NCBI GenBank assembly: GCA_033675265.1 | Contig: JAUJYZ010000630.1 | Location: 651,501-715,500, forward strand | Length of the DNA: 64,000 nt | Direction of reading: 5' to 3' | DNA from: Actinostola sp. cb2023 | Lineage: Eukaryota > Cnidaria > Anthozoa > Actiniaria > Actinostolidae | Part shown: positions 18,855 to 54,982 of the stretch, piece after piece | Position numbering within the stretch: the first letter of the stretch is position 1 | How the letters are laid out: each line of letters begins with the position of its first letter | Notes under the pieces: generated by a model | What the model saw: the letters and a program-made list of their open reading frames with translations, nothing else | Databases searched by the model: none | What the model was told of the DNA's origin: nothing | Translations under genes and position numbers: made by a program

Positions 18855-21800
18855 CTAGTTTCCAGTCTTTTTCTTCACTGCGCGGTTTCTCATTTCTTGA
18901 ATCACGTGATCATTTGGACCTGCTTTGCATTTGAATGTTTTTTTCTCAATCTGATTGGACGCCTTGATTTTGGTATTCGATTCTGATTGGTTATCAAGGA
19001 CATGGTAATATGGCAATGGTTTCTGTGGCTTCATGACTGCCTCTTTGTCTTCGGCTGATTTTCTTTTCGAAGCGTACGGCATAACTGCGTTCTTTGAGGT
19101 ACCCTTGGTGGGTTTTTGGGTACCCTGTGGTAGTTGACCTTCTGAGGTACCCTTGGTGGGTTTGTCCACACAGTCTTCAGAGCAGTAGTACAACTTATTG
19201 GGTTTTTGGGTAACCTGTGGTAGTTGACCTTCTGGGGTACCCTTGGTGGGTTTGTCCACACAGTCTTCAGAGCAGTAGTACAACCTATTGGGTTTTTGGG
19301 TAACCTGTAGTAGTTGACCTTCTGGGGTACCCTTGGTGGGTTTGTCCACACAGTCTTCAGAGCAGTAGTACAACCTATTGGGTTTTTGGGTAACCTGTGG
19401 TAGTTGACCTTCTGGGGTACCCTTGGTAGGTTTGTCCACGCAATCTTCAGAGCAGTAGTACAACCTATTTGGTTTTTGGGTAACCTGTGGTAATTGAACT
19501 TCGGGGGTACCCATGGTAGGTTTGTCCACGCAGTCTTCAGAGCAGTAGTATAAGCTTTCTGGTTCTTGGGTACCCTGTGGTAATTGACCTTCGGGGGTAC
19601 CCATGGTAGGTTTGTCCACGCAGTCTTCAGAGCAGTAATATAAGCTTTCTGGTTCTTGGGTAACCTGTGGTGGTTGACTATTCGGGTCTTCGAGGACATG
19701 ATAGTAAGGTTTAATCATCTGTGCATGCCCAGTTTTATTTGCTTCTTGATTGGTTGATGACGAACCAATTGACGCTGCCGCTGTCACATGTTCGTCGTAA
19801 GGATCTGAGTAGATATCGGTCCCAGGCTCTCCCTCACAGGTTTGGCCGTTCATTTCGTCTGGATGGGACTGGGATCCACTATTGCGTTTGAATAGGAGAC
19901 CTCGCATTTTTCTTAAAACAGACGCACCTTTGCCATGTTGTAACCGTTTACTGGAGAGGGTCTGGTAACTAGAGCTTGGCTTGGCCCCAATCAGTTGTTG
20001 GTAGTTCTTTATGGATGTGGGGGTTGGTTGCTTGGGGTTGACACCATCAGCACTAACATCTTCTGTTGAGAATTCACAATATGTTAGGTAGTATTTACAA
20101 TATGAGTGGCAATGTTGTATCTTATTTACAATCTCGAGCCGAAGGCGAAAGATTGTAAATAAGATACAACATTGTCACGAATATTGTAAATTACTTATGA
20201 TATTGTTTAATCATTGTTTGAACCAGGTAGGCGTTTCAACCAGAATTGTAGTCAATATCTGATTGAGATGAAAAGAATATTAACTGTTCATTTAGCATTC
20301 AATTCTCATTCCGATTGCTTGACCGCACTGAACAATGAAAGCAGTTTCGTATTATAGCTTAGTTAAGAGTCGATTGTTTAATACTGAAATGTTTTATTCC
20401 TTTTCATACTTTTGAATAGAGTTGATTGCTCATTGAGACAGACAAAGAACAAATACGGCAAATATGTAATATGAATGCTTTTTCATTTAGAATACATTTA
20501 CACTTTTGTTTGGTTTTCAAAGGGGGCTTTAATTGTGAATGAAATGCGAACGGAGTTTTGATTCTTTTCAATCAAATCAAGAACAGTTCTCACAGGAAGG
20601 TCATAAAGCTAAGACGGGCATTTGAGACGATGACTGGCAATTATCGTAAACTGCCAAAAGTGCATCACAAGAGAGTCAGTTGTTGAGGGAATGTGCCCAA
20701 ACTAGCACAAAGTGGAGTGTAAAGATTTTTGAAGACTGGCAGATGTCTCGTAAAAACAAGGTAGCAAGGAAAGAGTCTATTGACATGTCTTTTGACACAT
20801 AAATTCCGTATGAAGTTCTTCGACTAACATTACTTTACCATCTTCTAACTCGAGGTTCTTGAAAAGAATAATGTAGCAAGTAACGCAATATTTAGCCAGA
20901 ACGGTGTTATCATATTTAATTTGAAGTAATCTCATGTCTTTCAAAGTTAACGTTTGTTATAATTTATTTGAGATTGTGAAAGTATTGCCGCACAAAGCTA
21001 GAAATCCAATGATTGTATCATTAGTAAGTAAGTTAAAACTGTGAAGGTGCTAAGCTCCAATAGAGGAAGGGAGTTACATTAAAGAAACTGCGGAACAAAA
21101 TCTAACGAGTATTTTTTTTAATATAATACATTGATCGATACAGAATACGTATAGAGCTTATTAGTATTCTGTATATACAGAATACTAATAAGGTCTATTA
21201 GTATTCTGTATCAGATACAGCCGAATACTAATAAGCTTTATTACTATTCTGTATCATACTTGTATGGGAGTTACAAGGTAGCCACGTGATCAGAATGCTG
21301 AGCACAGATTGGACAGCTGCCTAATGAATTATTAATGAATATTATAATATTAGATACAATTTATCGGTCAAAGTACACTTTTTTCAGTCACAAAAATTAT
21401 TCTCAGATCGCTTCAGTTCTTTTATAATTACATGCAGCTGTTGCGAGTAACTTCCACGTGGATTTTTTTTGTGTGCAAAATTTGTGCAATTTATTATCTT
21501 CAATAAAATCATCGTTTTCAGACAGTGGAATTGGACCGGCAAACAGTGTATAGTCCGCTATAACCATATTTCTTACCATTGTCAGATGTTGGTTTATTCG
21601 CGTTATTCTTTGAATGCCTACAGGAAGAAAAATATTGGTCAAAATGACTCAAGCAATCAACACTTTAAAAAGTATGGGGAAATCAGTCCATTTTATGCTG
21701 CAGCAAATGTAAAGATGGCGGATCAGTATTTTGACCATAATCCTTTGCGCGCATGAATGTCTTAATTACATGTAAGCTAAGGTGAGGCATATCATGGGTT

Positions 21801-22238
21801 CAACAATCATGTGATAACTTTCATTTTCAAAAATGAGTCAGAGTATCAGTTGTTCAGGTGATGATAAACAAATATAATATAAAGATATAAAATTCGCAAA
21901 TGTTTATATTAAAAAGCCGGATTATCAGTGTTATACGGATTGAGTGCTAACCTGTGTTTCTTGACCCATCGATACAACACAAAACAACAAAACAGAGTCT
22001 CCACCAAAATTATGCTCCCCAGGCCCGTCGCTACTCTTTGTGCCTTCAGTGAACAATCAGCTAGTCTTGATTGACTTGTATTGGCGGCAAAACTCATCGA
22101 GGTAACTGTAGTATTTATGGTGCCATTAAAACCGGTTGTTGGTGTTGGTATGGACGAAACAGCACCGAGTAATATGACTACCAGAATGCCAAGCGAAGTT
22201 CTAGCCCAAGAAACACTCAAACTGCACTTAGTAACCAT
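18855..22238 (-). CDS. Protein D: short-ectodomain membrane protein with six tyrosine-rich tail repeats
   Basis: Exon 1 is 22238-21952 and exon 2 about 20052-18855, giving some 494 aa. Exon 1 encodes a signal peptide (about 1-30), an ectodomain of only about 38 residues with three N-glycosylation sequons (NGT, NTT, NTS) and one Cys, a transmembrane segment (about 70-90) and RWVKKH. Exon 2 is wholly cytoplasmic. It has IYSDPYDEH, PYYHVLED, six 30-residue repeats containing LYYCSEDCVDKPT, then a second PYYHVLD and a basic end. YHVL fits YxxL. The protein lies directly downstream of receptor A, on the same strand, with the same general layout but no recognisable cysteine or core domain. The exon 2 acceptor (gttag at 20053) is weak, so an extra exon, or two separate genes, is possible. 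Without splicing, exon 1 reads on to NPYNTDNPAF and a stop. Confidence 0.6.
19130..19690 (-). repeat. Coding 90-bp minisatellite in protein D
   Basis: Six in-frame 90-bp units, each encoding 30 residues around YYCSEDCVDKPT, with partial units at the ends. Differences between units are few (for example KPNR against EPES), which points to recent homogenisation or expansion. The array is open in a second minus-strand frame too, a by-product of the 90-bp period. Confidence 0.9.
20053..21951. other. Putative intron of gene D
   Basis: About 1.9 kb, AT-rich. It includes a hairpin (20083-20203, arms gtatcttatttacaatctc and gattgtaaataagatac) and a palindromic block of repeated agaatactaataag/ttattagtattct (21130-21262). 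A partial MITE lies near 21700-21760. No exon was recognised. Confidence 0.5.
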
Positions 22239-22919
22239 TTTCGCTCGGCCTTTTCTCAGGAACTCACTATTAAGTGTTACTAAGGATTGTTATGGCTTCA
22301 ATTTGCTTCGCTGAATAATTAAGCTTGCTTACAGTATCTCGATAAAGCAGAGTTTTTGGGAGTTTCGATTGAGCTTGCAGTAGACAAGCATTTTACTGGC
22401 TTTATGCAAAATAACTAGAAAGTACATGCGAAACGTGAAACTGAAATATTTTGCAATGTGTTTATTCCAAACAAAAATGGATGATGTTTACTAAACAAAA
22501 AAGTCGAGCTATTTACGGCGAATTGTATACCGATGAGAATACAGGAATTCCATCCGAAAAAGAAATCATTTAAAATTTGCGGCGTCAATTTTTTAGGCGC
22601 CATTTTGCCTAAGTCACGCATGCGCACATTAATTATTTTCCAGTTACAAAGAAAACAATATATATGCAAAACCTCATTAATATGTAAATTAAACTAAATT
22701 AAATAAAACGCAACTCTCCACCATTGTATCTGCCAAACATATCATGGCATTGATGGAGAGCGAGAGCCGGTTTGAGGTTTGAAGTGAGAAAACTTTGAAA
22801 CATTATTTCAACTCCGCGGTTCAAACGAGAATTGTCAAAATCAATTCCTAGAGAACTCCTCCAATGCGGGCCGGTACGGACTTCTTTGGTTCCTCTAGCT
22901 AACATTCACAGCTAGCGCT
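22239..22919. other. Intergenic region 5' of gene D
   Basis: It holds the presumed promoter of gene D. I see no recognisable motif or coding exon. The ORFs here lack start context and features. Confidence 0.5.
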
Positions 22920-24555
22920 GATTCAGTGTTCTGTGTAGGCAGACATGTGCTGTTGCCTGTGTAAATGCTCTACGTAGTACTAAGTCACGTGACTGATGGT
23001 CGATGACAGTATAGCGCTGATTGGCTTTTAACGGAGTACTTTACATGCTTGTAGTGTCAGTTAAGTGTTTTGTGTAGGCAATGATATGCTCTACGTAGCA
23101 TAGTACTATGTCACGTGACTGATGGTCGATGACATTCTAGCGCTGATTGGCTTTTAACGGAGTACTTTACATGCTTGTATTGTCAGTTAAGTGTTTTGTG
23201 TAGGCAATGATATGCTCTACGTAGCATAGTACTATGTCACGTGACTGATGGTCGATGACATTCTAGCGCTGATTGGCTTTTAACGGAGTACTTTACATGC
23301 TTGTATTGTCAGTTAAGTGTTTTGTGTAGGCAATGATATGCTCTACGTAGCATAGTACTATGTAACGGAGTACTTTACATGCTTGTATTGTCAGTTAAGT
23401 GTTTTGTGTAGGCAATGATATGCTCTACGTGTACTAAGTCACGTGACTGATGGTCGATGACATTCTAGCGCTGATTGGCTTTTAACGGAGTACTTTACAT
23501 GCTTGTATTGTCAGTTAAGTGTTTTGTGTAGGCAATGATATGCTCTACGTAGCATAGTACTATGTCACGTGACTGATGGTCGATGACATTCTAGCGCTGA
23601 TTGGCTTTTAACGGAGTACTTTACATGCTTGTATTGTCAGTTAAGTGTTTTGTGTAGGCAATGATATGCTCTACGTAGCATAGTACTATGGTCGTCACGT
23701 GACTGATGGTCGATGACATTCTAGCGCTGATGATATGCTACTTTACTATGTCACGTGACTGATGGTCGATGACAACGGAGTACTTTACATGCTTGTATTG
23801 TCAGTTAAGTGTTTTGTGTAGGCAATGATATGCTCTACGTAGCATAGTACTATGTCACGTGACTGATGGTCGATGACATTCTAGCGCTGATTGGCTTTTA
23901 ACGGAGTACTTTACATGCTTGTATTGTCAGTTAAGTGTTTTGTGTAGGCAATGATATGCTCTACGTAGTACTAAGTCACGTGACTGATGGTCGATGACAT
24001 TCTAGCGCTGATTGGCTTTTAACGGAGTACTTTACATGCTTGTATTGTCAGTTAAGTGTTTTGTGTAGGCAATGATATGCTCTACGTAGCATAGTACTAT
24101 GTCACGTGACTGATGGTCGATGACATTCTAGCGCTGATTGGCTTTTAACGGAGTACTTTACATGCTTGTATTGTCAGTTAAGTGTTTTGTGTAGGCAATG
24201 ATATGCTCTACGTAGTACTAAGTCACGTGACTGATGGTCGATGACATTCTAGCGCTGATTGGCTTTTAACGGAGTACTTTACATGCTTGTATTGTCAGTT
24301 AAGTGTTTTGTGTAGGCAATGATATGCTCTACGTAGCATAGTACTATGTCACGTGACTGATGGTCGATGACATTCTAGCGCTGATTGGCTTTTAACGGAG
24401 TACTTTACATGCTTGTATTGTCAGTTAAGTGTTTTGTGTAGGCAATGATATGCTCTACGTAGCATAGTACTATGTCACGTGACTGATGGTCGATCACATT
24501 CTAGCGCTGATTGGCTTTTAACGGAGTACTTTACATGCTTGTATTGTCAGTTGGT
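22920..24555. repeat. 126-bp minisatellite overlapping the stop codon of receptor A
   Basis: About 13 units of 126 bp, with some internally deleted (one is about 82 bp). The core includes ctctacgtagcatagtact, cacgtgactgatggtcgat and acggagtactttacatgc. The first unit contains the last codons of receptor A (TDNTSM and stop), and every other unit keeps a copy of that segment (tgcttgtattgtcagtt). The array therefore arose from the end of the coding exon. Confidence 0.95.
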
Positions 24556-25241
24556 TCTAGTACAAAGTACTCGTGGGCATCTGTTATTGGATCATCTGCG
24601 GACATCCCTGGCATGAATTCCACCGTCACTTGTGCGCCATCTGCTGGCAAAGTGTATTCTTTATTAGTCTCTACCGGGGGATTGTCGTAATCTGACGATT
24701 CATTAGTCGGGTAGTCAGTGTCAGTGGCAGTGGCCTGTGGTGGATTGTCGTAGTCGCCGCATGATTCTGTTGCATCGGTTGATGGATTTTCGTAATCAAA
24801 GGCTTCATTCTGCTCGCCGTTAGGATAAGAGATTGGCGGCAATGGCGGAGGCGTTGGTTCTGTTGAATTAATAATCAGGATAAATAAAGCCATAAGTTTT
24901 AATAAATAGATGCATTTTTCTGTGGTTCGGCGTTACCAACCGAAAGAAACGTGTGAACGGCCAGAGGTCCACTCACATGCAAGTCCGTCCTTCGCAGCCG
25001 ATTTTAGTGTCGTCACGCTACGTTCCTTGCGTGTGGAGCGAGCGAGCGTTGCGTGATGACACTAATTTAAGATGAAAAACGACTCATAGAACATGCAGTG
25101 GTCGCTTGCGCATGCGCGACAGGGGCGGATCCAGGATTGTTTTAGGGGGGGGGGGGGGGGGGCAAACGTATACTAAGCATAAAAAACAATCAATAAATAA
25201 AATAAATCATTTGAACCTCAGGTATGACATGGGGGTTCGGA

Positions 25242-25272
<31 letters not shown>

Positions 25273-27129
25273 GACCCCTCCCCCGACCCTCCCCCTGGAT
25301 CCGCCACTGCGCGAGGTGCATGGTCATTCCTTCATATCCTGATAAAACAGCCAATAATATTGACAGACGTATTACCTGCAATAGTCCTGGTAAGTTCATT
25401 CAGAGGTTGGTACGATGGTTCCATTCCTGGAATTCCAGGTAGAGGATCCAATTTGGATCTCCTTGTGAAGTTATCGTTGGTTGGATCGCAGTAAGTAGGG
25501 TTGTCTGAGAAAGAAAGGTATACATGTTAGACAAGTACTGACTGCATGGCAATCATTCCCTGGAGATTAAAAGTACAACTACACAGCGGCCATGTTGGTG
25601 GTACCAACAAGAGAAGGCTAATGATGAATGCTTTTTTATCGGGAACCAAATTAACATGGCCGTGCATGACATCACGTGCAACTCAGCAATCGGGGCACTA
25701 AAGCCCCATTTATATACACGACAATATTTTTTGGGCACGGCACTCCTAACCCAGTTTAGGCGGCACAATTCACGAGTGCCGTACGCGTGCTAAAAAAAGG
25801 CACTCGTACCTAAAGTTAGCAGTGCCGTGCCCAAAAATATTGTCGTGTAGATGGGGCAGCTGTTACGCGATCGATCAACTATCCTTGGTAGAGTGGAAGG
25901 AGATACAGGTAGGCTAATATCGATCAAGACTACTTGATTCATAATTCTTTGGAGTATAAACTAACGAATCACAATATAAATCACTGAATCGCTCACCAAA
26001 GTCTGGGTTTGTTTCAGGTAGCTCTGCATAGACAGGATCCTGCACAAAACACATCATTGTCAGTAAAATACACTCAAATCTACGCGACAAGACCGAAAGG
26101 GAGCATGGGTAATTATGATTATTTGTTTGTTTTCTATCACCATGACTACTGCCAATGACGGAACTTCCAATGAAGGTATAGCGTGCGTTTCTCCCAGTGA
26201 GGAGTGTGATACAGTTTTATTTGCAGGAATACTTTGTATTAAGTTATACAAACCTGGTAGTTTTCAATGTCGGCATCTGTAATTACGTAGATACAAAAGA
26301 CACGCATTAGTAAAAAAATACAACCTCGCCGATAAAATGGCGGATCAGTACTTTTACCAGAATCCTTTGCGCGCATAAACCACATATACCTCGTAGAAAC
26401 TACAGAACAGAGAGTTTTTAAGACTTTAAGATGTGCAATTAAAAGTGTGATGCTGTTTCCAGCTCTACTTATGTGAAAGTATCAGAGAAGATGAAGATGT
26501 GAGGAGCTGGTACCAACTAACTGATTTAGGTTCGCAAAGGATTGTGGTAATATGTATGGCGGCCATCTTTGTTCTGTACAGTGGATTTATTGACTGGCAA
26601 ACATTGAAATAAAAATAAAATTAAAGAATAAACAAAACGAAAAAATAAATAAATACAGTAAAAAGATTGAAACAATTTTCATTCGTTTGATATATTCTTT
26701 CGTCGTTGCAAATTCCAGAAATGAAGCATATTAATAAAACTTTAATGCTCACCTGAATTGACTACTGGTTTGGATTCCTTTGATCTCCAGGACAGACTGA
26801 CAACAAACAAGTAAACAAACAAACAAATTAACAATGAACGATTGAACAAAGAAAGAATGAAGATAATTCACCGTACAGAAAAACATGGCGGCTGCACATT
26901 TTACCCACAATCCTTTGCGAACCTAAATCAGTACCACTGACATCTACAGACTTACTGACACGGTTCCATAAATAAAGCAGGTAACAGCTTCATACTCGCA
27001 AATTTTGATGTTCTTAAAGCTCTCTGTTGCGATGGTTTCTGAAATGTTTTAGTTGTTTGGCGCGCAAAGGATTGTGGTATAATATAAAGCCGCCATCTTG
27101 TTCGTGCATGCACGTACAGTGTATTTAAC

Positions 27130-27199
<70 letters not shown>

Positions 27200-29708
27200 T
27201 TATCACTTATATAGCGCGCAAAATTACTAAGCGAATACTGCATTAATTACAAGCAAAGTATGCATGCTGAAACAGTTTAAATACCATGTCTTTCGTCTCC
27301 GGTATACCACAACGAGCAGGATCAAGATGCAAATCAATGCGACAATTCCTCCAATGACACCAAGGGACGTACCAACCGCACTGCTACTCGATTGCTCATT
27401 AGACTTTGGATCGCCAAGCTGCTGGTCACTTGAGTTGGACGACTGAAAAACAAACAGCTAGACTTGTCATGGCCTACATAGCTTGGTGGTTTTTAGGGGT
27501 TTGGGGCGAGGAGAAAGGGGAGGGGCGAAGGGGAAGAGAAGAAGATTAAAACCCGCCAAGGTACGCACACTAGACTTGTCTGAAATGACATCTCGTGTGT
27601 AATAACAATAAAATATCCCCAGCAGTTCATTGGCGCTTTACATGAAATAAACTGATCGAATTACATGCAGTAATCAAACTAAATAAATGTTACTAACATA
27701 TGTTGCAACAGAATAGAAGTCATTGTTGGTATTTACTTTTTCTGTTGGTTTCTGAGTCGTCGATTTTGGTGGAGTTTTCGTAGGTTCTCTACCGTCTCCC
27801 GACTGACCATCTTTTACGCTGACCGACGTAGTTATAGCCGGTGGAGTTGTTATAGGTTGCTGTGGTGTTTTCCTATCGTCTACAATAGAATTAAAGACAT
27901 CAAAAACAATACTCAACTCTCGTTCAAATAGTGTAAGCGAACGAGAAGAAATAGAACTGAGAAGAAAAACAAGAAATGAGATGATGATGATGAGGATTAA
28001 TCAGGATGAGGATGAGGATGATGACGTGTAAACGAAAGAAAAGAAATAGAATAGAAGAAGAAAAAAGAAATAATAATAATAATAATAAGATGATCGATGA
28101 TGATCGATGATGATGACGATGCACTAGCTGCAATTATTTTTCTCTTCGCCTGCGTTTGTACGTACGTTGGCTAGCGGTTTTTCACTATCAGGCTTCGCCG
28201 CTCGATTTATTGAGAGTAAATAAAGAAATAATGACGATTGCTACCGGCATGAATAAAAACGTATGGAGTAATTAAACGACGTATACACTCAAAGTGAAAT
28301 TGTGTCTGTACTCACATGTATGTGTGCCGTTAATCTTGGCCAACAGACACCCTATATGATGCTTGTCTTTACAGTATAAAGACACTCTTATCAGCAGACC
28401 TGCATACTGAGCGTCCAACTTTCTATTCCACTGAAACGACAAATATTATAAAGTATATACCCGTATTTATTTTACTTTGGCCGATAATTAACTATAGGAA
28501 AAACAGGATGAAAGTCAGTCCGAATAGTTGCATTGTAACTTTCAACCTGTTTTTCCTTAAGTTATCGGATGGACATGGTTTTTAATTAGCCATGTAAGCT
28601 GTAGCTCAAAGAAGAGTTGGAATTAATTGGAGCGTCGCATATCGGAGGACTGGAGTTTGACCAAGACTAGTAAAGACCCTTTGCGCGCATAGATCACTAT
28701 CTGGCTTCATAGAAAATTTAGAACAGAGAGAAACCGCGGCAAATCTTGCAAGTGCGAAGCTGTCACTGTGCGTTATTAATTCATGTAAACGTGTCAGAAT
28801 GTTTACTAGATCTTAGTGGAACTGATTTAGGTTCGCAAAGGATTACTGGGTAAAACGTACACCAGTCATCTTGCTCTGTACGTATAGTACATTTCACTTA
28901 TTCTCTTGTTTTATATTCATTTTGTACCTGCAGAAAAGTGAGATCCTTTATATCATGCGTCGGTCCACCAACAGTGTTGTGACCAACAGTGAATATGTCG
29001 CCATGTCCTACAATCCACGCGTCTTGTGCGTTTAGGTATTGCCATTGATCGACGATCACATCGTCATCACAGTCGATACGGACATGACTTGTGAACTTCG
29101 CCTTGCCTGATGCTTGTTCGGTGAGTAGAAGTACTTCAAGTGGCACGTTGTCTGGTCGGATACTGAACGAGCAGTCTGTAGATGAAGCCGTATGATTATT
29201 AAAACAAGCATTTGGTCTATAAGTGTTCTGTCAGAAGTAAACAGGAAGACATAAAATATTACAGTCAAACAAGCATTAGTCAAGAGGCGATAGAGTTCTT
29301 AGAGCATCAATACGGCCTTGTAAGTAGTCTGTAGAAGAAGTTATGATTATATAAACAAGCATTTAGTCTATAAGTGTTCTGTCAGACGCAAACAGGAAGA
29401 CATCAAATATTACAGTCAAACAAGCATAATTAAGAGGCGATAGAGTGCTTAGAGCATCAATACGCCCTTGTATGTAGTCTGTAGAAAAAGTTATGGTATA
29501 TAAACAAGCATTTAGTCTATAAGTGTTCTGTCAGACGCAAACAGGAAGACATCAAATATTACAGTCAAACAAGCATTAGTCAAGAGGCGATAGAGTTCTT
29601 AGAGCATCAATACGGCCTTGTAAGTAGTCTGTAGAAGAAGTTATGATTATATAAACAAGCATTTAGTCTATAAGTGTTCTGTCAGACGCAAACAGGAAGA
29701 CATCAAAT

Positions 29709-29744
<36 letters not shown>

Positions 29745-31161
29745 TACAGTCAAACAAGCATAATTAAGAGGCGATAGAGTGCTTAGAGCATCAATACGCC
29801 CTTGTAAGTAGTCTGTAGAAAAAGTTATGATTATATAAACAAGCATTTAGTCTATAAGTGTTCTGTCAGACGCAAACAGGAAGACATCAAATATTACAGT
29901 CAAACAAGCATAATTAAGAGGCGATAGAGTGCTTAGAGCATCAATACGCCCTTGTACAAGTAGTCTGTAGAAGAAGTTATGATTATATAAACAAGCATTT
30001 AGTCTATAAGTGTTCTGTCAGAAGTAAACAGGAAGACATAAAATATTACAGTCAAACAAGCATTAGTCAAGAGGCGATAGAGTGCTTAGAGCATCAATAC
30101 GCCCTTGTATGTGTTGCGTACAGCAAATTTATTCATCTCAATTTCAAACACTACTTTAATCCATAATAATTGACAAAACTCACTAGATGTAGGTTCCTAT
30201 AAACGAAGGAAAACGTGATTACAAATAAATTGTCAAGGAGAATGTCCATGAATACAAAAATACTTACGAAAGGTTGAGGGAAAAAGTCAATGTCTATCCG
30301 TATGAAACTCAGAGCCAGAATGCTAATTTAAACGATGTACAGTAGATAAACTAGAAAAAATTTAAATACTAACAATGGAAAAGTAACAAAAGACGAAAAC
30401 AATGACGGCCTAAGGACTAACTAAGTACAAAGAACAAAAACTAAAGTAAACGAAATACCATTAACAGTATGTAGTCTGTAGAAAAAGTTATGATTATATA
30501 AAAAAGCATTTAGTCTATAAGTGTTCTGTCAGACGCAAACAAGGAAGACATGAAATATTACAGCAAACAAGCATTAGTCAAGAGGCGATAGAGTGCTTAG
30601 AGCATCAATACGCCCTTGTATGTAGTCTGTAGAAAAAGTTATGATTATATATAAAAAAGCATTTAGTCTATAAATGTTCTGTCAGACGCAAACAAGGAAG
30701 ACATGAAATATTACAGTCAAACAAGCATTAGTCAAGAGGCGATAGAGTGCTTAGAGCATCAATACGCCCTTGTATGTAGTCTGTAGAAAAAGTTATGATT
30801 ATATAAAAAAGCATTTAGTCTATAAGTGTTCTGTCAGACGCAAACAAGGAAGACATGAAATATTACAGCAAACAAGCATTAGTCAAGAGGCGATAGAGTG
30901 CTTAGAGCATCAATACGCCATTGTACTAGTCTGTAGAAAAAGTTATGATTATATAAAAAAGCATTTAGTCTTTACGTGTTCTGTCAGAAGTAAACAGGAA
31001 GACATAAAATATTACAGTCAAACAAGCTTTAGTCAAGAGGCGATAGAGTTCTTAGAGCATCAATACGGCCTTGTAAGTAGTCTGTAGAAGAAGTTATGAT
31101 TATATAAACAAGCATTTAGTCTATAAGTGTTCTGTCAGACGCAAACAGGAAGACATCAAAT

Positions 31162-31200
<39 letters not shown>

Positions 31201-34200
31201 TACAGTCAAACAAGCATAATTAAGAGGCGATAGAGTGCTTAGAGCATCAATACGCCCTTGTAAGTAGTCTGTAGAAAAAGTTATGATTATATAAACAAGC
31301 ATTTAGTCTATAAGTGTTCTGTCAGACGCAAACAGGAAGACATCAAATATTACAGTCAAACAAGCATAATTAAGAGGCGATAGAGTGCTTAGAGCATCAA
31401 TACGCCCTTGTACAAGTAGTCTGTAGAAGAAGTTATGATTATATAAACAAGCATTTAGTCTATAAGTGTTCTGTCAGAAGTAAACAGGAAGACATAAAAT
31501 ATTACAGTCAAACAAGCATTAGTCAAGAGGCGATAGAGTGCTTAGAGCATCAATACGCCCTTGTATGTGTTGCGTACAGCAAAGTCTGTAGAACTACTTT
31601 AATCCATAATTGACAAAACTCATAGATGTAGGTTCCTATAAACGAAGGAAAAAGCATTTAGTCTATAAATTGTCAAGGAGTTCTGTCTTACGAAAGGTTG
31701 AGGGAAAAAACATCCGTATGGAAGAACATAAAATAGTTACTAGTCAAACAAGCATTAGTCAAGAGGCGATAGAGTGCTTAGAGCATCAATACGCCCTTGT
31801 ATGTAGTCTGTAGAAAAAGTTATGGTATATAAACAAGCATTTAGTCTATAAGTGTTCTGTCAGACGCAAACAAGGAAGACATGAAATATTACAGCAAACC
31901 GCGCATTAGTCAAGAGGCGATAGAGTGCTTAGAACATCAATACGCCCTTGTACTAGTCTGTAGAAAAAGCTATGATTATATAACAAGCATTTAGTCTATA
32001 AGTGTTATGTCAGACGCAAACAGGAAGACATGAAATATTACAGTCAAACAAGCATTAGTCAAGAGGCGATAGAGTGCTTAGAGCATCAATACGCCCTTGT
32101 ATGTAGTCTGTAGAAAAAGTTATGATTATATAAAAAAGCATTTAGTCTATACTTGTTCTGTCAGACGCAAACAAGGAAGACATGAAATATAAATATTACA
32201 GTCAAACAAGCATTAGTCAAGAGGCGATATCTAGAGTTCTTAGAGCATCAATACGCCCTTGTAAGTAGTCTGTAGAAGAAGTTATGATTATATAAACAAG
32301 CATTCAGTCTATAAGTGTTATGTCAGACGCAAACAGGAAGACATAAAATATTACAGTCAAACAAGCATTTAGTCAAGAGGCGATATAGAGTACTTAGCTA
32401 GAGGATCAATTATGATTGTATTAAACAAGCATTAGTCATTACAAGATGCAATAGAGTGCATGCTTAGAGCGCCAATACGCCCTTCTGAGTCGGTTCAAAA
32501 GTAAACAAGAATAAATATAAACTATCTGCACTAGCGTTCCTATCTTAGTAAGACTGGATAAAACTAAGTTGATGCTATTATTATGCCATAAATATATCCA
32601 CTGGATAAGGATTTATCAAGCGGCGAATAGTGCTATCCATGCACTCTATGAACAACTGAGGCAGGCTGAGAAGACTGTGAGGTAACCGACTAAAAATAAA
32701 TTCTACAAAATCACGGAATACGCATGACGTACAATTCGAGATGAATTGATCAAATAAAATATCTACAAAATCCGTATTTGTTTTCTTCAAGATCAACATG
32801 ATATCGACTGCTTGAAATTCTCTGGTCCATCATCAATCAACACACTGACGTCATTCATGTAGTTGCTCCACATGCAAATATATATCACAATAGACCCTTT
32901 GCAGGATTACGATCACGTGGTTGTACTGACTGGCAAAAAAATCTGACTTTATTTATTTGAAGAATCGTACATGATATCAGTAGTGACAGTTCTCAATCAT
33001 TGGCATGTGACTGTAAACTGCAAAGGGCCTATTTGTACCACTTAATTACAAATGATGTAGGAACTGCTTGTCATTGTTTATGTGATAGGTTCTAAGCCTT
33101 TAGCAAATCTTCTCGCACAGCAAAGTCATCATAAATGGGAACATGTCAACTATGTATCAAACGGGTTGATAAGGTCTGTAAGGACGAAACATGTTCCCAT
33201 TTTATGATGATTTTGCAATGCTGAAATAACCCGGCACTGCAATAAAGTTTATCTATCTTTTTTATCAATCTATCTAGCTATCTGTGCGTGAAGATTTTAT
33301 TTTTTTAATAACTTTATTTGTCACAAAAAAAATTAACATTATTAATTACCATTCGAAAAAAAAAAATATTTCAAAATACTTATTTACCTTCATATACTTA
33401 TTACAGTTGATTTACAAATACAGTAATATACCTGTAACTATAATGGTACTGATTTGCGGTACTCCCAGTGAGTGAAGATTTATTAAAGGTTTAGGGCTAA
33501 CAGCTAAATATGTCCAGTGACAAGAATTTCAAAATCTTTTGAAGTCCAATCAAGAAGAATTTCAACGAGATGTAGGAATAGGTACTGACCTATTTCTTGG
33601 TAACCCTCAGGCTGAAATCTGCATACCGCGAGCTTATTCAATGGTTAAATTAACAGATAATACGCGCAGATATTTCACGAGGTGTGTAGTACTGAGTAGA
33701 GCCCGTATTATCTCCAAACCATCGAATAAGGGATTTGTTTTATTCCACTTATTTGATTTGTTTATTTTTATGTCTTGGTTCGTTCAAGTTCGGCTGTTTT
33801 TGCTCTGTTTCTGCCGCGCGCTACTGTGTGATGCGCTGTCATTTACGTGTTTTCTTATGACGCAAGTGTGGACTTATAAATGAGAGAAAAAACTGCGGTT
33901 TTAATTAGCGCGGCTGTACTTTTACGAGTTTACTAGAAGGATATTCTGCGCAATAATGAAAGCAGAATGGTGTCAAAACGATACTCGAATCAACGATCAC
34001 TTTCGTGAGATATATTAATTTACTCGATTGTTGCGATATAAATCTGCATGTTTAATTTCATCGCTTTGCATTGAACTTCAAATTAATATTTAAATATTCC
34101 ACATCTTTAGATAATATTTTGTCAGCAACTGAATATCGAGTATCTTGCCATGCATCGTATTCTAAGTATCTTTATATAGTGCTTTTTAGCTGCTTAATTG

Positions 34201-34718
34201 TGTTTTTGTGTGTTTGTTTTGTGGCTGTAAACAATGCATTGAGTGCAGGTGGACCGATATATTGACGAAAGCAGTCATAGCTAGATATGTTATCATAGCT
34301 AGCGAACACTGACTAGTTCCCAACTGTAGAACAAACTACACGAACTGTTGCCGCTGTTTTCATTTGATATACTAGCCCATTCTAACTTATTCGAAGTTTT
34401 AAAATGTCTTAAAAGTTGAATTTGAATGTGAACAAACTTACTTGCTTTCGTCTGCTGTTCTGTATTTGGATTAGACTTGCATTCCCAGACTTTGACTAAG
34501 AAATTCGGCTGATTGTAGTTACACTTACACATGCAGCATGAACTAGAGCAGTGTGAATTGGAAGGACAGTCGCTAGAACTACAAGTTGGATTACTGAATG
34601 TGTCTTGATCGGAAACGTTATTAAGCCCGACACGGCGAACTACACGCACTGTCAGCGAACTAGCACCAAGTTTTAGAAGCAAGCATAACATTAGCATCAA
34701 ATACTGTGATCGATCCAT
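24531..34718 (-). CDS. Receptor A: type I membrane protein with novel ectodomain and NPxY/YDNP tail
   Basis: Ten exons rebuilt from splice sites: 34718-34442, 29175-28928, 28430-28316, 27879-27698, 27442-27285, 26796-26753, 26276-26254, 26039-25997, 25504-25376, 24859-24531. Phases 1-0-1-0-2-1-0-1-1 match gene B exactly; 515 aa. Order: signal peptide; eight-Cys module (C-x4-C-x5-C-x3-CC-x-C-x-C-x13-C); core domain (93-213) with VRIDCDD, DQWQYL, IFTV, LDAQYAGLLIRV and two further Cys; Thr/Pro/Ser stalk; TM about 301-320 then YRRRK. The tail has IENYQ, DPVYAEL (YxxL), DNPTY (NPxY, also YCDP), PSYQPL, a proline run PPPLPP, YENP, two YDNPP, and HEYFVL. I do not recognise the core domain; an immunoglobulin-like fold is possible but unproven. 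Likely a phosphotyrosine-signalling surface receptor. Intron 1 and the 3' end carry minisatellites. Confidence 0.85.
25121..25313. mobile_element. TIR element with ggggcggatccagg ends, receptor A intron 9
   Basis: The left end caggggcggatccaggatt pairs with the right end ccctggatccgccactgcg. Next to the left end is a run of G and before the right end a run of C, so the whole element can fold. Low-complexity Gly/Pro ORFs across it are artefacts. Confidence 0.85.
25695..25860. mobile_element. Foldback element, receptor A intron 8
   Basis: The outer ends cacgacaatattttttgggc and gcccaaaaatattgtcgtg pair, as do gcacggcactc and cagtgccgtgc. The cgtgtag/ctacacg end theme matches the elements at 16975-17316. 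Confidence 0.8.
26320..27125. mobile_element. Two copies of the gcgcgc/gccatctt MITE, receptor A introns 5 and 6
   Basis: Copy one (26320-26590, in intron 6) runs from aatggcggatcagtac and cctttgcgcgcataaacc to aggattgtggtaatatgta and ggccatctttgttctgtac. Copy two (about 26870-27125, in intron 5) has the opposite order, starting at gtacagaaaaacatggcgg. Exon 6 (26753-26796) lies between them. Confidence 0.8.
27130..27200. repeat. (AAT)n microsatellite, receptor A intron 5
   Basis: About 23 AAT units; the poly-leucine ORF on the minus strand is an artefact. Confidence 0.95.
28655..28895. mobile_element. gcgcgc/gccatctt MITE copy, receptor A intron 2
   Basis: Blocks aagaccctttgcgcgcatag, ttaggttcgcaaaggatta and tcatcttgctctgtac occur in family order just 3' of the exon 2 donor. 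Confidence 0.75.
29171..32500. repeat. 150-bp satellite array in receptor A intron 1, abutting exon 2
   Basis: About 20 units of 148-150 bp, with cores tagtctgtagaagaagttat, gtgttctgtcagacgcaaac and gaggcgatagagtgcttag. The first unit edge coincides with the exon 2 acceptor (gcagtctgtag at 29171-29181), and every unit repeats an acceptor-like ctgtag. Two units carry an identical (AAT)n insertion (about 29710 and 31160), and two blocks are followed by gtgttgcgtacagcaaa (about 30112 and 31567). This indicates a higher-order duplication of about 1.45 kb. A unique insert lies at about 30120-30470. Confidence 0.9.
32501..34441. other. Rest of receptor A intron 1
   Basis: AT-rich with no exon recognised. 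It holds an inverted-repeat element (about 32890-33035, ends atagaccctttgcag and ctgcaaagggcctat) and a hairpin (33117-33220, arms catcataaatgggaacatg and catgttcccattttatgatg). Confidence 0.5.
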
Positions 34719-36086: not shown

Positions 36087-44582
<8,496 letters not shown>

Positions 44583-47030: not shown

Positions 47031-47039
47031 TCTGCCGTA

Positions 47040-47794: not shown

Positions 47795-50700
47795 TTATAC
47801 ATTTGGATCATCATGACCAGAATCAACAGGCTCGAGTTCCATATATTCTGGACATTTACTGTTATCATCTGTAAGCTCCAGGTACACTGTTTGACCTTGA
47901 TCACTATCATCACCCTCTGGTGTATGTGACCTAACGAGTGCTTGGTATATGCTGTTGTTAAGATCTCTATCATCCTTGCCTTGTAAGGGCGCATATTCAT
48001 GGTCGAATGGAGCTGCTGAGTGAGGGAGTGAGCGATTTGATTTTTTACTGTTATTGGAGTGTTTTAATATGAGTGATTCCATGCTGATCGCAGGCGTTCT
48101 TATGATAAGTTCATTATCTGGCCCCCGTCCATACGAAGCATTTTCTATGAATAATCAGAGATAGAAATTAAAAACTAATTCAACTTATCAATAATTATTA
48201 TCATCTCTGTAGTATACAGAATATATACCGACAAAGAACTAAACAAAGACAGAAAGTAAAACAAAATAAGGATAGCAGTCACAATCAGCGCTTGATAAAA
48301 AGTTTATCTCATCACAGGGCAACATGTTGCTTTTGAGACAAAACAAACTGCTACCAATGATATACTCCCCCACCCTTCCCCTGAAATGCAATCCTTGGAA
48401 GTACAGTACTTGTGGCATATTATATAGTATTACTAGATGTGACAACTCACCTAAACTGTTTGAAGACGAAGGTTGGAATCCGTCTTGTAATGCAGGGTAT
48501 ACTACATACTCATAGTCATGGGTAGGGCTAGTAACACCATTGTCTGTGTGCCGTGAATGGCTTGAAGGTCTAGTACATGCCATCACTATGTTATCTATAA
48601 AGCAAATTTAAATTATCATATATAATAGATACAATATGAGCAGCCGTAGAGTATGGGAATTACAATGTCACCTACATTACCAATACTATACGTAATAGAT
48701 ACAATATGAGCAGCCGTAGAGTATGGGAATTACAATGTCACCTACATGTACATTACCAATACTGTACGTAATAGATACAATATGAGCAGCCGTAGAGTAT
48801 GGGAATTACAATATCGAACCGCAGGCAAGACATTTCAATTCCCATACAGTTTGGTTGGGAATATTGAGCATGTATATACGGTATTGAATATTTTATTGGA
48901 CTTATCATATGCACAGATGTATAAAATCTTGTTCTGTTATAATTTTGAAGATACAAGTAAGTTTGGCTGAGAAAATCAATATTCACAATATACATGTGCA
49001 TGTAGAAGAGCTGTGTATGACATTAAAAAATGACAAGTTTACTTCAAAAAATGGAGAGATTTTGTAAGCATCATAAAAAATGCACCGTGTATCAATCAAT
49101 CAATCAAATAGCTTTATTTTGACATGGTAAATGGCTCAGTAAACTGTTTTTCAGACATGCCGTGTATAATAATAATACATAATTTAAAACTCTACCATGT
49201 TGTTTCTTCTTTCTTTGTCTGCGAAGTAACAGGAATATAACCAAACCAGCCACCAACAACACAATCAAGAAAGTAAGTCCACCTGTTAGGAAAACTATCC
49301 AAAGTCTCCCATTATTTGCAGTAGATGTTTCTCTATTTGGTTCTTTTGACAATGTAGTGGATGAAACTGTAGCTGTTGTTGTAGGTACTGTAGGATGTGA
49401 GACCTGTATATAAACAGAATTGATTTTATTGATAACAAGAATTAAAGGAGATGTCATTGTATTGATTGCAGTACTGCATAGAGTGCAAACCATATGTCCG
49501 TGAAATAGTACTATTACTAAATAGTACTAAATAGAGTTATCTCCATTGTTTTCTATTGTTTCATTAGTGCTATTCAGTACTAATTAGTTAGTACTGTTTC
49601 ACAGACATATGGTTTGCACTCTATACTGCATACACTGTACATGTAGCCTTCTGTCTCTGTGTACCACCATGCTGCAGCCTGTAACCACTGTGTACCACTA
49701 TGCTGCAGCCTGTAGCCACTGTGTACCACCATGCTGCAGCCTTTTACACTGTGTACCACTATGCTGCAGCCTGTAGCCACTGTGTACCACTATGCTGCAG
49801 CCTGTAGCCACTATGTACCACTATGCTGCAGCCTGTAGCCACTGTGTACCACCATGCTGCAGCCTGTAACCACTGTGTACCACTATGCTGCAGCCTGTAA
49901 CCACTGTGTACCACTATGCTGCAGCCTGTAGCCACTGTGTACCACTATGCTACAGACTGTAACCACTATGTACCACTATGCTGCAGCCTGTAGCCACTGT
50001 GTACCACTATGCTGCAGCCTTTTACACTGTGTACCACTATGCTGCAGCATGTAGCCACTGTGTACCACTATGCTGCAGCCTGTAGCCACTGTGTACCACT
50101 ATGCTGCAGCCTGTAACCACTGTGTACCACTATGCTGCAGCCTGTAGCCACTGTGTACCACTATGCTGCAGCCTGTAACCACTGTGTACCACTATGCTGC
50201 AGCCTGTAGCCATTGTGTACCACTATGCTTCAGCCTGTAACCACTGTGTACCACTATGCTGCAGCCTGTAGCCACTGTGTACCACTATGCTGCAGCCTGT
50301 AGCCACTGTGCACCATAGTGTTGCAGCCTGCAGCCACTGTGTATATGTGTACCACTATGCTGCAGCCTGTAGCCACTGTGTACCACTATGCTGCAGCCTG
50401 TAGCCAGTGTACCACTATGCTGCAGCCTGTAGCCACTGTGTACCATAGTGTTGCAGCCTGTAGCCACTATGTACCATAGTGTTGCAGCCTGTAGCCACTG
50501 TGTACCACTATGCTGCAGCCTGTAGCCAGTGTACCATAGTGTTGCAGCCTGTAGCCACTGTGTACCACTATGCTGCAGCCTGTAGCCACTGTGTACCACT
50601 ATGCTGCAGCCTGTAACCACTGTGTACCACTATGCTGCAGCCTGTAACCATTGTGTACCACTATGCTGCAGCCTGTAACCACTGTGTACCACTATGCTGC

Positions 50701-53700
50701 AGTCTGTAGCCACTGTGTACCACTATGCTGCAGCCTGTAGCCACTGTGCACCATAGTGTTGCAGCCTGTAGCCACTGTGTACCACAATGCTGCAGCCTGT
50801 AGCCACTGTGTACCACTATGCTGCAGCCTGTAGCCACTGTGTACCACTATGCTGCAGCCTGTAGCCACTGTGTACCACTATGCTGCAGCCTGTAGCCACT
50901 GTGTACCATAGTGTTGCAGCCTGTAGCCACTATGTACCATAGTGTTGCAGCCTGTAGCCACTGTGTACCACTATGCTGCAGCCTGTAGCCACTGTGTACC
51001 ATAGTGTTGCAGCCTGTAGCCACTGTGTACCACTATGCTGCAGCCTGTATCCACTGTGTACCACTATGCTGCAGCCTGTAGCCACTGTGCACCATAGTGT
51101 TGCAGCCTGTATCCACTGTGTACCACTATGCTGCAGCCTGTAGCCACTGTGCACCATAGTGTTGCAGCCTGTAGCCACTGTGTACCACTATGCTGCAGCC
51201 TGTAGCCACTGTGTACCACTATGCTGCAGCCTGTAGCCACTGTGTACCATAGTGTTGCAGCCTGTAGCCACTATGTACCATAGTGTTGCAGCCTGTAGCC
51301 ACTGTGTACCACTATGCTGCAGCCTGTAGCCACTGTGTACCATAGTGTTGCAGCCTGTAGCCACTATGTACCATAGTGTTGCAGCCTGTAGCCACTGTGT
51401 ACCACTATGCTGCAGCCTGTAGCCACTGTGTACCATAGTGTTGCAGCCTGTAGCCACTGTGTACCACTATGCTGCAGCCTGTATCCACTGTGTACCACTA
51501 TGCTGCAGCCTGTAGCCACTGTGCACCATAGTGTTGCAGCCTGTATCCACTGTACCACTATGCTGCAGCCTGTAGCCACTGTGCACCATAGTGTTGCAGC
51601 CTGTAGCCACTGTGTACCACTATGCTGCAGCCTGTAGCCACTGTGTACCACTATGCTGCAGCCTGTAGCCACTGTGTACCATAGTGTTGCAGCCTGTAGC
51701 CACTATGTACCATAGTGTTGCAGCCTGTAGCCACTGTGTACCACTATGCTGCAGCCTGTAACCACTGTGTACCACTATGCTGCAGCCTGTAGCCATTGTG
51801 TACCACTATGCTGCAGCCTGTAACCACTGTGTACCACTATGCTGCAGCCTGTAGCCACTGTGTACCACTATGCTGCAGCCTGTAGCCACTGTGTACCACT
51901 ATGCTGCAGCCTGTAGCCACTGTGTACCATAGTGTTGCAGCCTTTTACACTATGCACCACTATGCTGCAGCCTTCAATTTATGCAGGCTTTTGCACTACA
52001 TTTAATTACTGCAAATGTACCTTTTCTGTCTCTGTTTGCCATGTCTTTGCTAGAGTGGAAGGTACATTTTGTACTGTTGTACTTAATGTAACAGTTGTCT
52101 TGGTTGTACTTGGTGGCTGAGTAGTTGGAACAACTGAAGGTACGGAAAAACATGTTAAAATCTGGGCAGAGGAAATTGCAATGTTGCATGCAACAAGTTT
52201 TTTTTGAGGTGTCACACGATGCAACGTTGCGTGCAACAGTTGCAGAAGTAGAACTTGATCCTACTTCTGCAACTGCTACGTGCAACGTTGCAAGAAATGT
52301 TGCACCATGTGTCCGGGCCTTAATAGTAAAAAGTACTTTACCACCATCTATTTCTATACAGTGGATTTACATCACTGTATTTACTAACCTTTATGTTTCC
52401 CCAGTGTTTTGAACATTACACAGTTTGGACCAGGATTAAATCCATCTTCAAACTCACATTGTGTTGTTACTTTTATTAGAAGACCATGGAAGATTGCAGG
52501 CAGGCTGTCAGATATCTAAAACCAAGGAACATTGTTTATACTGATTTTCTGCAACAATCAAGTGTGTACTCTGATTGTGCTGTAACATGGACTTGTAGTC
52601 TCCCCTTTTTCAATGTTCAATCAACTATACAGAATAAGATGGTACATTTGTACACATGCAGTTGTACATTTGCCCCAAAATACTTTGTCCATCGATATCA
52701 GTACCTTGCATGTACTTACAGTACATCTACAAACTGTCAGCCACATTCATATCAATAAAGATGGTAGCAGCTGCACAGTTATACTGTTATTCATGTGCAC
52801 AAAGGATTAAAGCAAAATGTACTGATCATCTTTTTCTGTACAGTCAATTGGGTCAACATTCAATAAAACTATGACCAAAAGGAATTCTGGGAAATTAAAA
52901 TTCTCAAATGACATCTTAAAATCAACAACCTTTCTTTCCATACTGGTAGGTTCTAGGCTCAGGGAGGGGGGAGGGGGGGATTGGCTGGTGGGACTTTGAC
53001 CCCCCCCCCCCCCCCCCCCTAGGCTCAGGGAGGTGGGAGGGGGGGGGGGGGGGGATTGGCTGGTGGGACTTTGACCCCCCCCCCCCCCCCCCCCCCCCAC
53101 CCCCACACACACACTTTTAGCCAAAAGGTTTGTCCCAATACATTGTTTTCTGATATATACTAGTTCATCCCTCCCTCACTACTGGCAAGTATAGGATCAG
53201 GTAAGTACTCCACTGAATCATCAGTGTGACAGGTGCCTTTAGTGGTGGGCTGTGACAGGGTTGCCATGGTAACCTTGCATCACTAGCTTGTAGTTCTTGG
53301 GTTGCCATGGTAACCTTGAGTAGGTCTTGGCATCCCCACCCTATGAGGCTCCTACCTCCAAGCTCATCTATTGGTGATGAGCTTAATAATATACTAGTCT
53401 ACTAGTATATCCAGCGCCCCCACTTTCAAGGGTGCTCAGCAGTCCCTGGGGCTGAATTCTATATTATTGATTTATTTATTTATTTCATGTGCATGAAACA
53501 TGGTTCATTTACTGCTATCCCAGACATCCTTGCGGTCATAGAATCAATGATTCATGATTATTAATCTGACAACAATAAGCAACTATGTGTATATGGAATA
53601 GAAATGTACCCGTTGCATTTGGACCTCACTTATTATGACACTCTGGTTATATCAACTCACCCGAAGAATCCATTCATTATTTGCAGCCTTCTTTTTCTTT

Positions 53701-54982
53701 TTTGCTTTATATTTAATTTTACCGCTACGTTGTGATTGTCGAGAGATCACACTAAAGATGTTGTGTGCTCCAGGAAACCAAGCATTGTTTTGATAATAAA
53801 ACCAAGACGCCTTGACTGTTGTACAGATACTTGATATGTTGACAAGGCGTAACTCCCTGGGTGTAGACACACTTATGTCAAGACCTGACAGTGTTGAGGA
53901 CAATGATGTCCCTTCTTTAACACCTACTGTACATGAATCTGAAATACAGATAATTCAGACTTAGAATTAAAGCATGTACATGTATGTCTGTTATTTTATG
54001 GTGCCTGATTTTTAGTGGTGTACATGTAAGCATTTATAAATATACATGTACTTAACAAATAGTAATAAAGCATGCCATACATGTACATGTAGGCGAATGT
54101 TTCTCCCTACTTCTTGAGTGCTCTCAGCACTTTCTAAGTGCTTTATTACTGAATGGAGCAAGTTCGTTCTGTTAGTTCTTGCATGTTCTCAGAAAAGACT
54201 AGATTGTATTGCATCTGGCTGACAGCCTGACAGCTAGACTGATGCAGTAATGACTATTTATGAAATACAAGTCAGCATGGTGGATAAGGCAGGGCATTGT
54301 TGCTTAACAGCATGTGTGCTTATGATCTCATGGACTAGCTGAAAACATTCTTCCGCTTCAAAATATAATAAATATATGTGCTGTTGTGTGAAGCTATAGA
54401 TTACTGTTTTATATATAAATATTTAAATTAGATCAGCTTTTTCATTTATTGGGGTAGTATTTTACTGGACAACGAAAGTCCTCATATTTGAATATAAGAA
54501 ATTTGTACATGTAAGTAAGTCTTAATTTATATAAGCTTACTCTTGAAATTGCTTGAATATTCCATTTCAAAATTAACATGAACTAAAATAGTCTATAATT
54601 TATTTCCAATGTCTAAGCTTATGTATAAATTATAACTGCTTATCAATACAAAATGTATGAATTACTCACTGTTCTTAGCGATGTCTTTATTGTCCACGCA
54701 CTTTGACTGTAGGCCATAAAATGTTGGTTGAAAAATCTCTCCACATTTACAAATACAAGGGCTTCCCAGTCCTGAATGACTCATAGCATTGTACTTATCA
54801 CATTCACTGCTATCGCATAATAAAGCAGGCCCTTGCTCTGGTTCAACTTCCAATGAATCACCTTGATCAGAACGAGTGACACTAATAATATTTTGACTTG
54901 AAAACTCCGTGTTTATCAACAACACGAGTCCAAAAGTAAGGAAGTTCTGAGGGGATATAAAACGGCCATTTCTTGCGGCCAT
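47795..54982 (-). CDS. Receptor C: paralogous type I membrane protein with multiple YxxL tail motifs
   Basis: Seven exons: 54982-54670, 53938-53661, 52515-52389, 52133-52021, 49403-49196, 48594-48451, 48144-47795; 510 aa, phases 1-0-1-0-1-1. Order: signal sequence (residues about 12-30 hydrophobic); Cys module reduced to six (C-x4-C ... C-x-C-x-C-x14-C); core domain (105-239) aligning with A and B at LRLVN, W...AW, HNIFSV, FHGLLIKV and the Cys pair of exon 3, with a lysine-rich insert KAKKKKKAA; Thr/Pro stalk over two exons; TM about 311-337; RRQRKKKQ. The tail differs from A and B: it lacks NPxY and YDNP and has YEYVVYPAL, HEYAPL, SIYQAL, TVYLEL and PEYMEL, a set of YxxL motifs as in ITAM/ITIM or SH2-docking tails. 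It is the first gene of the head-to-tail cluster. Intron 4 and the 3' flank hold minisatellites. Function not known. Confidence 0.85.
48628..48815. repeat. Three tandem copies of a ~65-bp unit, receptor C intron 5
   Basis: Three copies share taatagatacaatatgagca and gccgtagagtatgggaatta. The last is followed by an inverted piece near 48838 (attcccatac). Confidence 0.85.
49477..49625. repeat. Palindromic element, copy 1, receptor C intron 4
   Basis: The ends atagagtgcaaaccatatgt and acatatggtttgcactctat are complementary, and the interior is made of agtactaaatag/ctatttagtact-type arms. A nearly identical copy is at 57933-58080. Confidence 0.95.
49650..51985. repeat. 31-bp minisatellite, about 75 units, receptor C intron 4
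   Basis: The unit is based on ctgcagcctgtagccactg plus tgtaccactatg, 31 bp, spanning about 2.3 kb. Unit types (caccatagtgttg, tatccactg, ttttacactg) recur in ordered blocks, showing multi-unit duplication. The many ORFs on both strands across it are artefacts of the period. Confidence 0.97.
52610..52855. mobile_element. Degenerate MITE copy, receptor C intron 2
   Basis: Blocks ttgccccaaaatac, gtgcacaaaggattaaagca and tcatctttttctgtacagt resemble the gcgcgc/gccatctt family in order, but diverged. Confidence 0.5.
52955..53105. repeat. Duplicated block with G and C homopolymer runs, receptor C intron 2
   Basis: A unit of about 70 bp (gattggctggtgggactttg flanked by G and C runs) occurs twice in tandem. 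The runs are 8-20 bases long. Confidence 0.9.

Follow-up and report, generated by a model that had tools for sequence, protein, structure and literature searches.

Hydractinia Alr1 and Alr2 combine an Ig-like ectodomain with a stalk, one transmembrane (TM) segment and a tyrosine tail, and belong to a multi-gene, polymorphic complex. ITAM adaptors of the DAP12/FcR-gamma type have a short ectodomain with cysteine, an acidic TM residue and a partner with a basic TM segment. Among tyrosine motifs, YxNP is preferred by Grb2-type SH2 domains and NPxY by PTB proteins. In the fly, trichomes show an extreme phenotype when shavenoid is lost, and the protein it encodes has been termed a pioneer protein (PMC4053989); the role described there, in trichomes, does not directly support a signalling receptor.

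Gene models and relationships

The window, the whole 64,000-nucleotide stretch analysed, contains four exon chains (genes A to D). Exons were placed by eye and then joined, and the models derive from genomic sequence alone. Every internal junction is GT-AG and each CDS is open to its stop, which upholds the initial annotation of a cluster of four single-pass receptor-like genes, all on the minus strand. Signal-peptide-like starts and TM stretches were found by hydrophobicity, and each product is predicted to be a single-pass membrane protein.

47795..54982, minus strand: gene A, 7 exons, 510 aa (GT-AG junctions, open frame)
Gene A exons, minus strand: 54982-54670, 53938-53661, 52515-52389, 52133-52021, 49403-49196, 48594-48451, 48144-47795 (splice model)
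36087..44582, minus strand: gene B, 10 exons, 463 aa, exon-for-exon homologous with gene C
Gene B exons 1-5, minus strand: 44582-44306, 42030-41765, 41327-41213, 40847-40768, 40439-40276 (splice model)
Gene B exons 6-10, minus strand: 39756-39728, 38645-38620, 38160-38118, 37762-37634, 36349-36087 (splice model)
24531..34718, minus strand: gene C, 10 exons, 502 aa (splice model)
Gene C exons 1-5, minus strand: 34718-34442, 29175-28928, 28430-28316, 27879-27737, 27442-27285 (splice model)
Gene C exons 6-10, minus strand: 26796-26753, 26276-26254, 26039-25997, 25504-25376, 24859-24531 (splice model)
18855..22238, minus strand: gene D, 3 exons (22238-21952, 21617-21577, 20062-18855), 511 aa

Genes B and C each have nine introns in identical order, with end phases 1-0-1-0-2-1-0-1-1 in both. 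Several exons had been described as equal in length, and four are so in this pair (exon 1, 277; exon 3, 115; exon 8, 43; exon 9, 129). Pairwise BLASTP gave E 5.15e-48 (160 bits). Alignment and exon structure clearly mark B and C as sister copies, with similarity beyond chance.

Introns 1-4 of gene A have phases 1-0-1-0, matching B and C. The proposed sharing of exon order and phases by C, B and A therefore holds fully for B and C, and for A no further than the stalk, because the TM exon of A ends in phase 1 (2 in B and C) and BLASTP gave no convincing match between its tail and the others. BLASTP between A and B was weak, and the A ectodomain is weakly similar to those of B and C. Nine cysteine columns are invariant in all three genes, six in the N-terminal module and three in the core, with the second core cysteine of A displaced. 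Against a B+C ectodomain profile, A (searched at full length, against 1000 shuffles at ectodomain length) scored 14.5 bits and ranked first of 1003 targets; the best shuffle reached 13.2 bits, and its best-domain score of 13.2 exceeded the 12.8 of A. The core of A alone scored 8.7 bits, behind 4 of 1000 shuffles. On these comparisons there is moderate support for A as a relative of B and C, and it would be a distant member of their family.

Gene D matched C at E 0.010, and its BLASTP matches to A, B and C were all weak. Its TM exon and the following exon have the same end phases as those of B and C. Support for D as a putative relative of A-C is weak; it is probably a fourth signalling protein, having in common with the others only the TM/juxtamembrane exon pattern. 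It could be supposed that the genes are chance neighbours, with one duplication giving B and C, and A and D being unrelated single-pass proteins of convergent layout. The weak A-B and D matches, the failure of the A core to beat shuffles and the different tail and later phases of A would suit such an arrangement, but A has four intron phases in order in common with B and C, together with the nine cysteine columns and the same best Pfam family, and we think it unlikely.

A Shavenoid-type module and an undescribed core

54670..54982, minus strand: first exon of gene A, with a signal-peptide-like start plus the six-cysteine Sha_B_N module (Pfam PF23328)
44306..44582, minus strand: first exon of gene B, with a signal-peptide-like start plus an eight-cysteine module that is Sha_B_N-like (Pfam PF23328)
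34442..34718, minus strand: first exon of gene C, with a signal-peptide-like start plus an eight-cysteine module that is Sha_B_N-like (Pfam PF23328)
52389..53938, minus strand: core domain of gene A, encoded by exons 2-3 (unmatched in Pfam and PDB)
41213..42030, minus strand: gene B exons 2-3, core domain (splice model)
28316..29175, minus strand: gene C exons 2-3, core domain (splice model)
49196..52133, minus strand: Thr/Pro-rich stalk of gene A with the TM, encoded by exons 4-5 (splice model, hydrophobicity)

The initial annotation did not recognise the ectodomain. This no longer applies to the Cys module, which an HMM search matched to Pfam Sha_B_N (PF23328, the Shavenoid isoform B N-terminal domain; curated cut-off 24.4 bits), and so far stands for the core. 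Gene A passes the cut-off (ectodomain 30.3 bits, E 5.2e-7; full length 28.2 bits), while the ectodomains of B (19.3 bits, E 0.0013) and C (14.5 bits, E 0.042) fall below it. When each ectodomain was scanned in isolation, Pfam reported no family but Sha_B_N at E <= 10, and the three alignments span much the same stretch of the 62-position profile (2-60, 3-59 and 8-59). In full-length scans SIT and TM_ErbB1 ranked ahead of Sha_B_N for B, where it was third by E-value (0.0046); for C it ranked seventh (0.27). We link B and C to Sha_B_N because their cysteines align with those of A and they have intron phases in common with it. The match appears to go beyond cysteine spacing alone. None of ten Cys-preserving module shuffles (six from A, four from B, none from C) matched any Pfam family, the true modules having been scanned within whole ectodomains and so differing in length from the shuffled ones.

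A role in shaping epithelial cells and organising their apical actin, comparable to that of fly shavenoid in trichomes, is suggested by the Sha_B_N match and by the extreme trichome phenotype (PMC4053989); in that case the tails would couple contact at the surface to the cytoskeleton and not to gene expression. However, the similarity is seen through the Pfam profile and for the N-terminal module only, which here is followed by an undescribed core, a stalk, a TM segment and a tyrosine tail. We consider such a role rather unlikely.

The core (~120 residues) has no Pfam match at E <= 10. A PDB sequence search with the ectodomain profile returned none at E <= 10, and one with the B+C profile gave just three TM-segment rows (E 1.4-4); an ectodomain of known fold by sequence was dropped on the absence of a match in these searches. 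Two AlphaFold2 runs on contiguous pieces, one from exon 2 and one from exon 1 with three sequences apiece, gave models of low confidence (pLDDT 46.6 and 50.0).

Tyrosine tails

47795..48594, minus strand: gene A tail, encoded by exons 6-7 and carrying five YxxL/I (motif count)
36087..37762, minus strand: gene B tail, encoded by exons 9-10 and carrying NPVY plus four copies of Y[DE]NP (motif count)
24531..25504, minus strand: gene C tail, encoded by exons 9-10 and carrying NPTY plus three copies of Y[DE]NP (motif count)

The tail of A contains two extended ITAM-like pairs, YAPL-x12-YQAL and YLEL-x9-YMEL, a number reached by 0.16% of shuffles; a motif scan of this tail found no strict ITAM. It also carries two ITIM-type motifs, seen in 4.2% of shuffles. 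The Y[DE]NP counts of B and C were each matched by 0 of 5000 shuffles, which suggests Grb2-type SH2 docking. NPxY is not enriched, at least one being present in 10.7% (B) and 13.5% (C) of shuffles.

Copy number and flanks

Seven exon searches of the 424-Mb assembly found nothing beyond A, B and C below E 0.7, and the three remaining rows were at chance level (E 0.75, 2.6 and 3.4). The protein of B exon 2 matched in B and C only, and C exon 2 DNA gave a single match. As far as single-exon searches reach, these results point to a low-copy family. A further 120 kb of flank (60 kb per side, in 10-kb pieces, part of one being N) was scanned for open frames of at least 20 aa, and three of four profiles found no further member. 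With the exon-1 profile there were ten rows, all weak (E 0.021-0.75), of which the best seven are similar antisense frames inside a collagen-Ig-COLFI array.

This collagen-Ig-COLFI gene array lies directly below the window.

The initial annotation had drawn an analogy with allorecognition or immune receptor complexes. On an Alr-like reading, the genes would encode allorecognition or immune receptors with polymorphic ectodomains read by neighbours and ITAM/ITIM-like tails. The order of ectodomain, stalk, one TM and tyrosine tail is indeed that of Alr1/Alr2; the extended ITAM spacings and ITIM-type motifs of A (two of each), the one strict ITAM of D and the adjoining array could be counted in favour. 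The analogy fared poorly, however, as no Ig family appears at E <= 10 in the Pfam results for these ectodomains of A-C, the B and C tails are rich in Y[DE]NP and not ITAM-like, and copy number is low as far as searched. Below E 0.7 the exon searches found only A-C, which argues against an expanded allorecognition family, and a large family of this kind was dropped on that result. We regard the allorecognition reading as quite improbable.

Gene D

By hydrophobicity only, the product of D has a signal-peptide-like start, ~40 extracellular residues, a TM at 69-89 containing Glu80, and a 422-residue tail; the earlier description of the same topology with a tiny ectodomain is confirmed to that extent. 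The tail includes an in-frame 30-residue repeat in about 6 copies and an ITAM-spaced pair, YQQL-x8-YQTL (YQQLIGAKPSSSYQTL at 130), fitting YxxL/I-x6-8-YxxL/I. One strict ITAM occurs in 1.4% of D shuffles, before allowing for four tails and eight patterns. Pfam rows above cut-off for zf-FCS and Ecl1 were judged artefacts of repeat and composition.

D resembles DAP12/FcR-gamma in its short Cys-bearing ectodomain, its acidic TM residue and a YxxL-x8-YxxL ~40 residues past the TM. Unlike those adaptors, it has a much longer tail with the 30-residue repeat, and no basic residue that could pair with Glu80 occurs in the predicted TM of A-C, the only genes examined for one. That D is a DAP12-like ITAM adaptor next to a small Shavenoid-type receptor family in a non-vertebrate animal, the locus being a compact unit of receptors and adaptor that feeds a Syk-type kinase, is a long shot. 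If D were such an adaptor, it would be a concrete candidate upstream of Syk-type kinases in early-branching animals.

Proposed function of A-C

We lean, with some reserve, towards A-C being low-copy single-pass surface receptors that bind ligand and recruit adaptors through tyrosine-signalling tails. Their predicted architecture runs from a Shavenoid-type N-terminal Cys module (Sha_B_N) through an undescribed cysteine-bearing core and a Thr/Pro-rich stalk to a single membrane helix and a tail rich in tyrosines. The Cys module and core would bind an extracellular or neighbour-cell ligand, and receptor clustering would lead to tail phosphorylation and adaptor recruitment. In B and C, Grb2-type SH2 domains may dock on the repeated pYxNP and PTB proteins on NPxY; in A, SH2 proteins may dock on the YxxL pairs. 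For all three, surface location, ligand binding, phosphorylation and adaptor choice are what we infer from the predicted proteins. If this reading is right, an almost unstudied module, named via a fly hair-forming gene, would be tied to tyrosine-tail receptors, suggesting that Shavenoid-type proteins may have begun as, or may include, signalling receptors.

Gene models and exon architecture

The exons of four neighbouring receptor-like genes (A to D) were placed by reading the minus-strand sequence and were then joined in silico. All internal junctions are GT-AG and all four coding sequences are open. The predicted genes, and two neighbouring features with Pfam assignments, are as follows:

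59607-59948, minus strand: homeodomain exon (PF00046), upstream of A
47795-54982, minus strand: A, 510 aa, 7 exons, predicted
36087-44582, minus strand: B, 463 aa, 10 exons, predicted
24531-34718, minus strand: C, 502 aa, 10 exons, predicted
18855-22238, minus strand: D, 511 aa, 3 exons, predicted
14585-15568, minus strand: rhodopsin-type GPCR, one open frame (PF00001)

The exon order and phases that the initial annotation held to be shared by A, B and C are borne out for B and C, which have nine introns in common in the same order (end phases 1-0-1-0-2-1-0-1-1), four exons equal in length (277, 115, 43 and 129) and a pairwise alignment of E 5e-48. A agrees for introns 1-4 only (phases 1-0-1-0) and differs beyond these. 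D, described as having the same topology with little ectodomain, indeed comprises a signal-peptide-like start, ~40 extracellular residues, a transmembrane (TM) stretch and a long tail. As in B and C, the end phases of the TM exon and of the exon after it are 2 and 1; sequence similarity of D to C reaches E 0.010 only. Signal and TM stretches were called by hydrophobicity rather than by a trained predictor.

The introns, the homeodomain exon and the rhodopsin-type GPCR are in keeping with an animal genome, possibly a cnidarian one. Tandem arrays occupy intron 4 of A (49657-51973; 2.3 kb, 31-bp unit, ~75 copies) and the last intron of B (36367-37622; 70-bp unit, ~18 copies); in the 2-kb bin around the latter the plus strand is much richer in G than in C. 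Just below the window (contig bases 601501-651500) lies a tandem array of open frames of two types, collagen-Ig and Ig-Ig-COLFI; ~8 units were counted by eye, some split between frames, and a Pfam check covered one frame of each type, both from one 10-kb piece.

Ectodomains

Pfam scans assigned the Cys module of exon 1 to Sha_B_N (PF23328, Shavenoid isoform B N-terminal domain). Against a cut-off of 24.4 bits, full-length A scored 28.2, B 17.6 and C 12.0, with other, TM-centred families equalling or outscoring Sha_B_N in B and C. For the isolated ectodomains the scores were 30.3, 19.3 and 14.5 bits respectively (same cut-off), and Sha_B_N was the sole family listed for each. None of ten Cys-preserving module shuffles (six of A, four of B, none of C) matched any Pfam family, and thus the match in A and B does not arise from cysteine spacing alone. 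The module contains six cysteines in A and eight each in B and C.

The core (exons 2-3) of A, B and C had no match in Pfam or PDB. Invariant positions shared by all three cores comprise two Trp, a Gly, Phe-x-Val and three cysteine columns; two structure predictions made from pieces of exons had low confidence, and nothing was concluded from them. The ectodomain had initially been called unrecognised; so far this stands for the core but not for the module. The cluster can be recognised in part, its core domain being undescribed.

The relation of A to B and C was examined with a profile of the B and C ectodomains searched against 1003 targets (full-length A, its core, D and 1000 shuffles). Full-length A ranked first (14.5 bits); however, the best shuffle (13.2 bits) exceeded A's best-domain score (12.8 bits), and four shuffles outscored A's core alone (8.7 bits). 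Since profile scores overlap those of shuffles, the case for homology is made on intron phases, nine cysteines invariant across A, B and C, the order of parts and the Pfam family combined.

Cytoplasmic tails

Eight motifs were counted in the four tails against 5000 composition shuffles per tail, the percentages being uncorrected for 32 tests. Y[DE]NP occurs four times in B and three times in C, counts reached by none of the shuffles. YxN (0.8% of shuffles in B, 0.7% in C) and YxxP (0.02% and 0.16%) are raised along with it, their sites partly overlapping. NPxY occurs once each in B and C, which is not significant (at least one in 10.7% and 13.5% of shuffles). In the A tail YxxL/I occurs five times (0.06%), extended ITAM spacings twice (0.16%) and ITIM-type motifs twice (4.2%); the motif count found no strict ITAM in it. 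For the D tail the counts were one for the strict ITAM (1.4%), two for ITIM-type motifs (10%) and four for YxxL/I (5%). Allowing for 32 tests, Y[DE]NP holds, the YxxL/I of A roughly holds and the ITAM of D fails.

Phosphorylated YxN is bound by Grb2-type SH2 domains and NPxY by PTB domains. We propose that A, B and C would be ligand-binding receptors whose tails, once phosphorylated, would recruit SH2 and PTB adaptors.

Two tails are associated with repeats. Directly past the stop codon of A (47044-47716), ~6.4 copies of a 105-bp repeat duplicate its last coding segment (ELTDDNS..PEYMELEP), with all three frames broken by stops; the tyrosine motif of A is thus tandemly copied into the 3′ flank. 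The tail of D contains a 90-bp in-frame repeat (19109-19678; ~6 copies of 30 codons, YYCSEDC motif). When six units were compared in every pairing, 58 of the codon differences were synonymous and 56 non-synonymous (pairs not independent).

Copy number and possible roles

The 424-Mb assembly (1594 contigs; window at contig positions 651501-715500) was searched with single exons. DNA searches with C exon 2 and B exon 9 gave one match each. Protein searches with B exons 2 and 9 returned B and C; B exon 1 also returned both genes (C at E 0.02), together with one row at E 3.4. Those with A exons 1 and 2 returned A, plus rows at E 2.6 and at E 0.75 (with three stops), respectively. As B queries did not retrieve A, more distant members could escape such searches. 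No further convincing member was found within 60 kb either side of the window.

The low copy number, to the extent covered by these single-exon searches, makes a role in allorecognition, to which the layout had been likened, less likely. An excerpt of a 2025 allorecognition perspective (PMC12018476) makes no mention of A to D. As an alternative, A, B and C may act in cell shape, fly shavenoid being described in an excerpt (PMC4053989) as a trichome gene whose product is termed a pioneer protein; this is the possibility most worth testing. A to D are a real, small receptor cluster.
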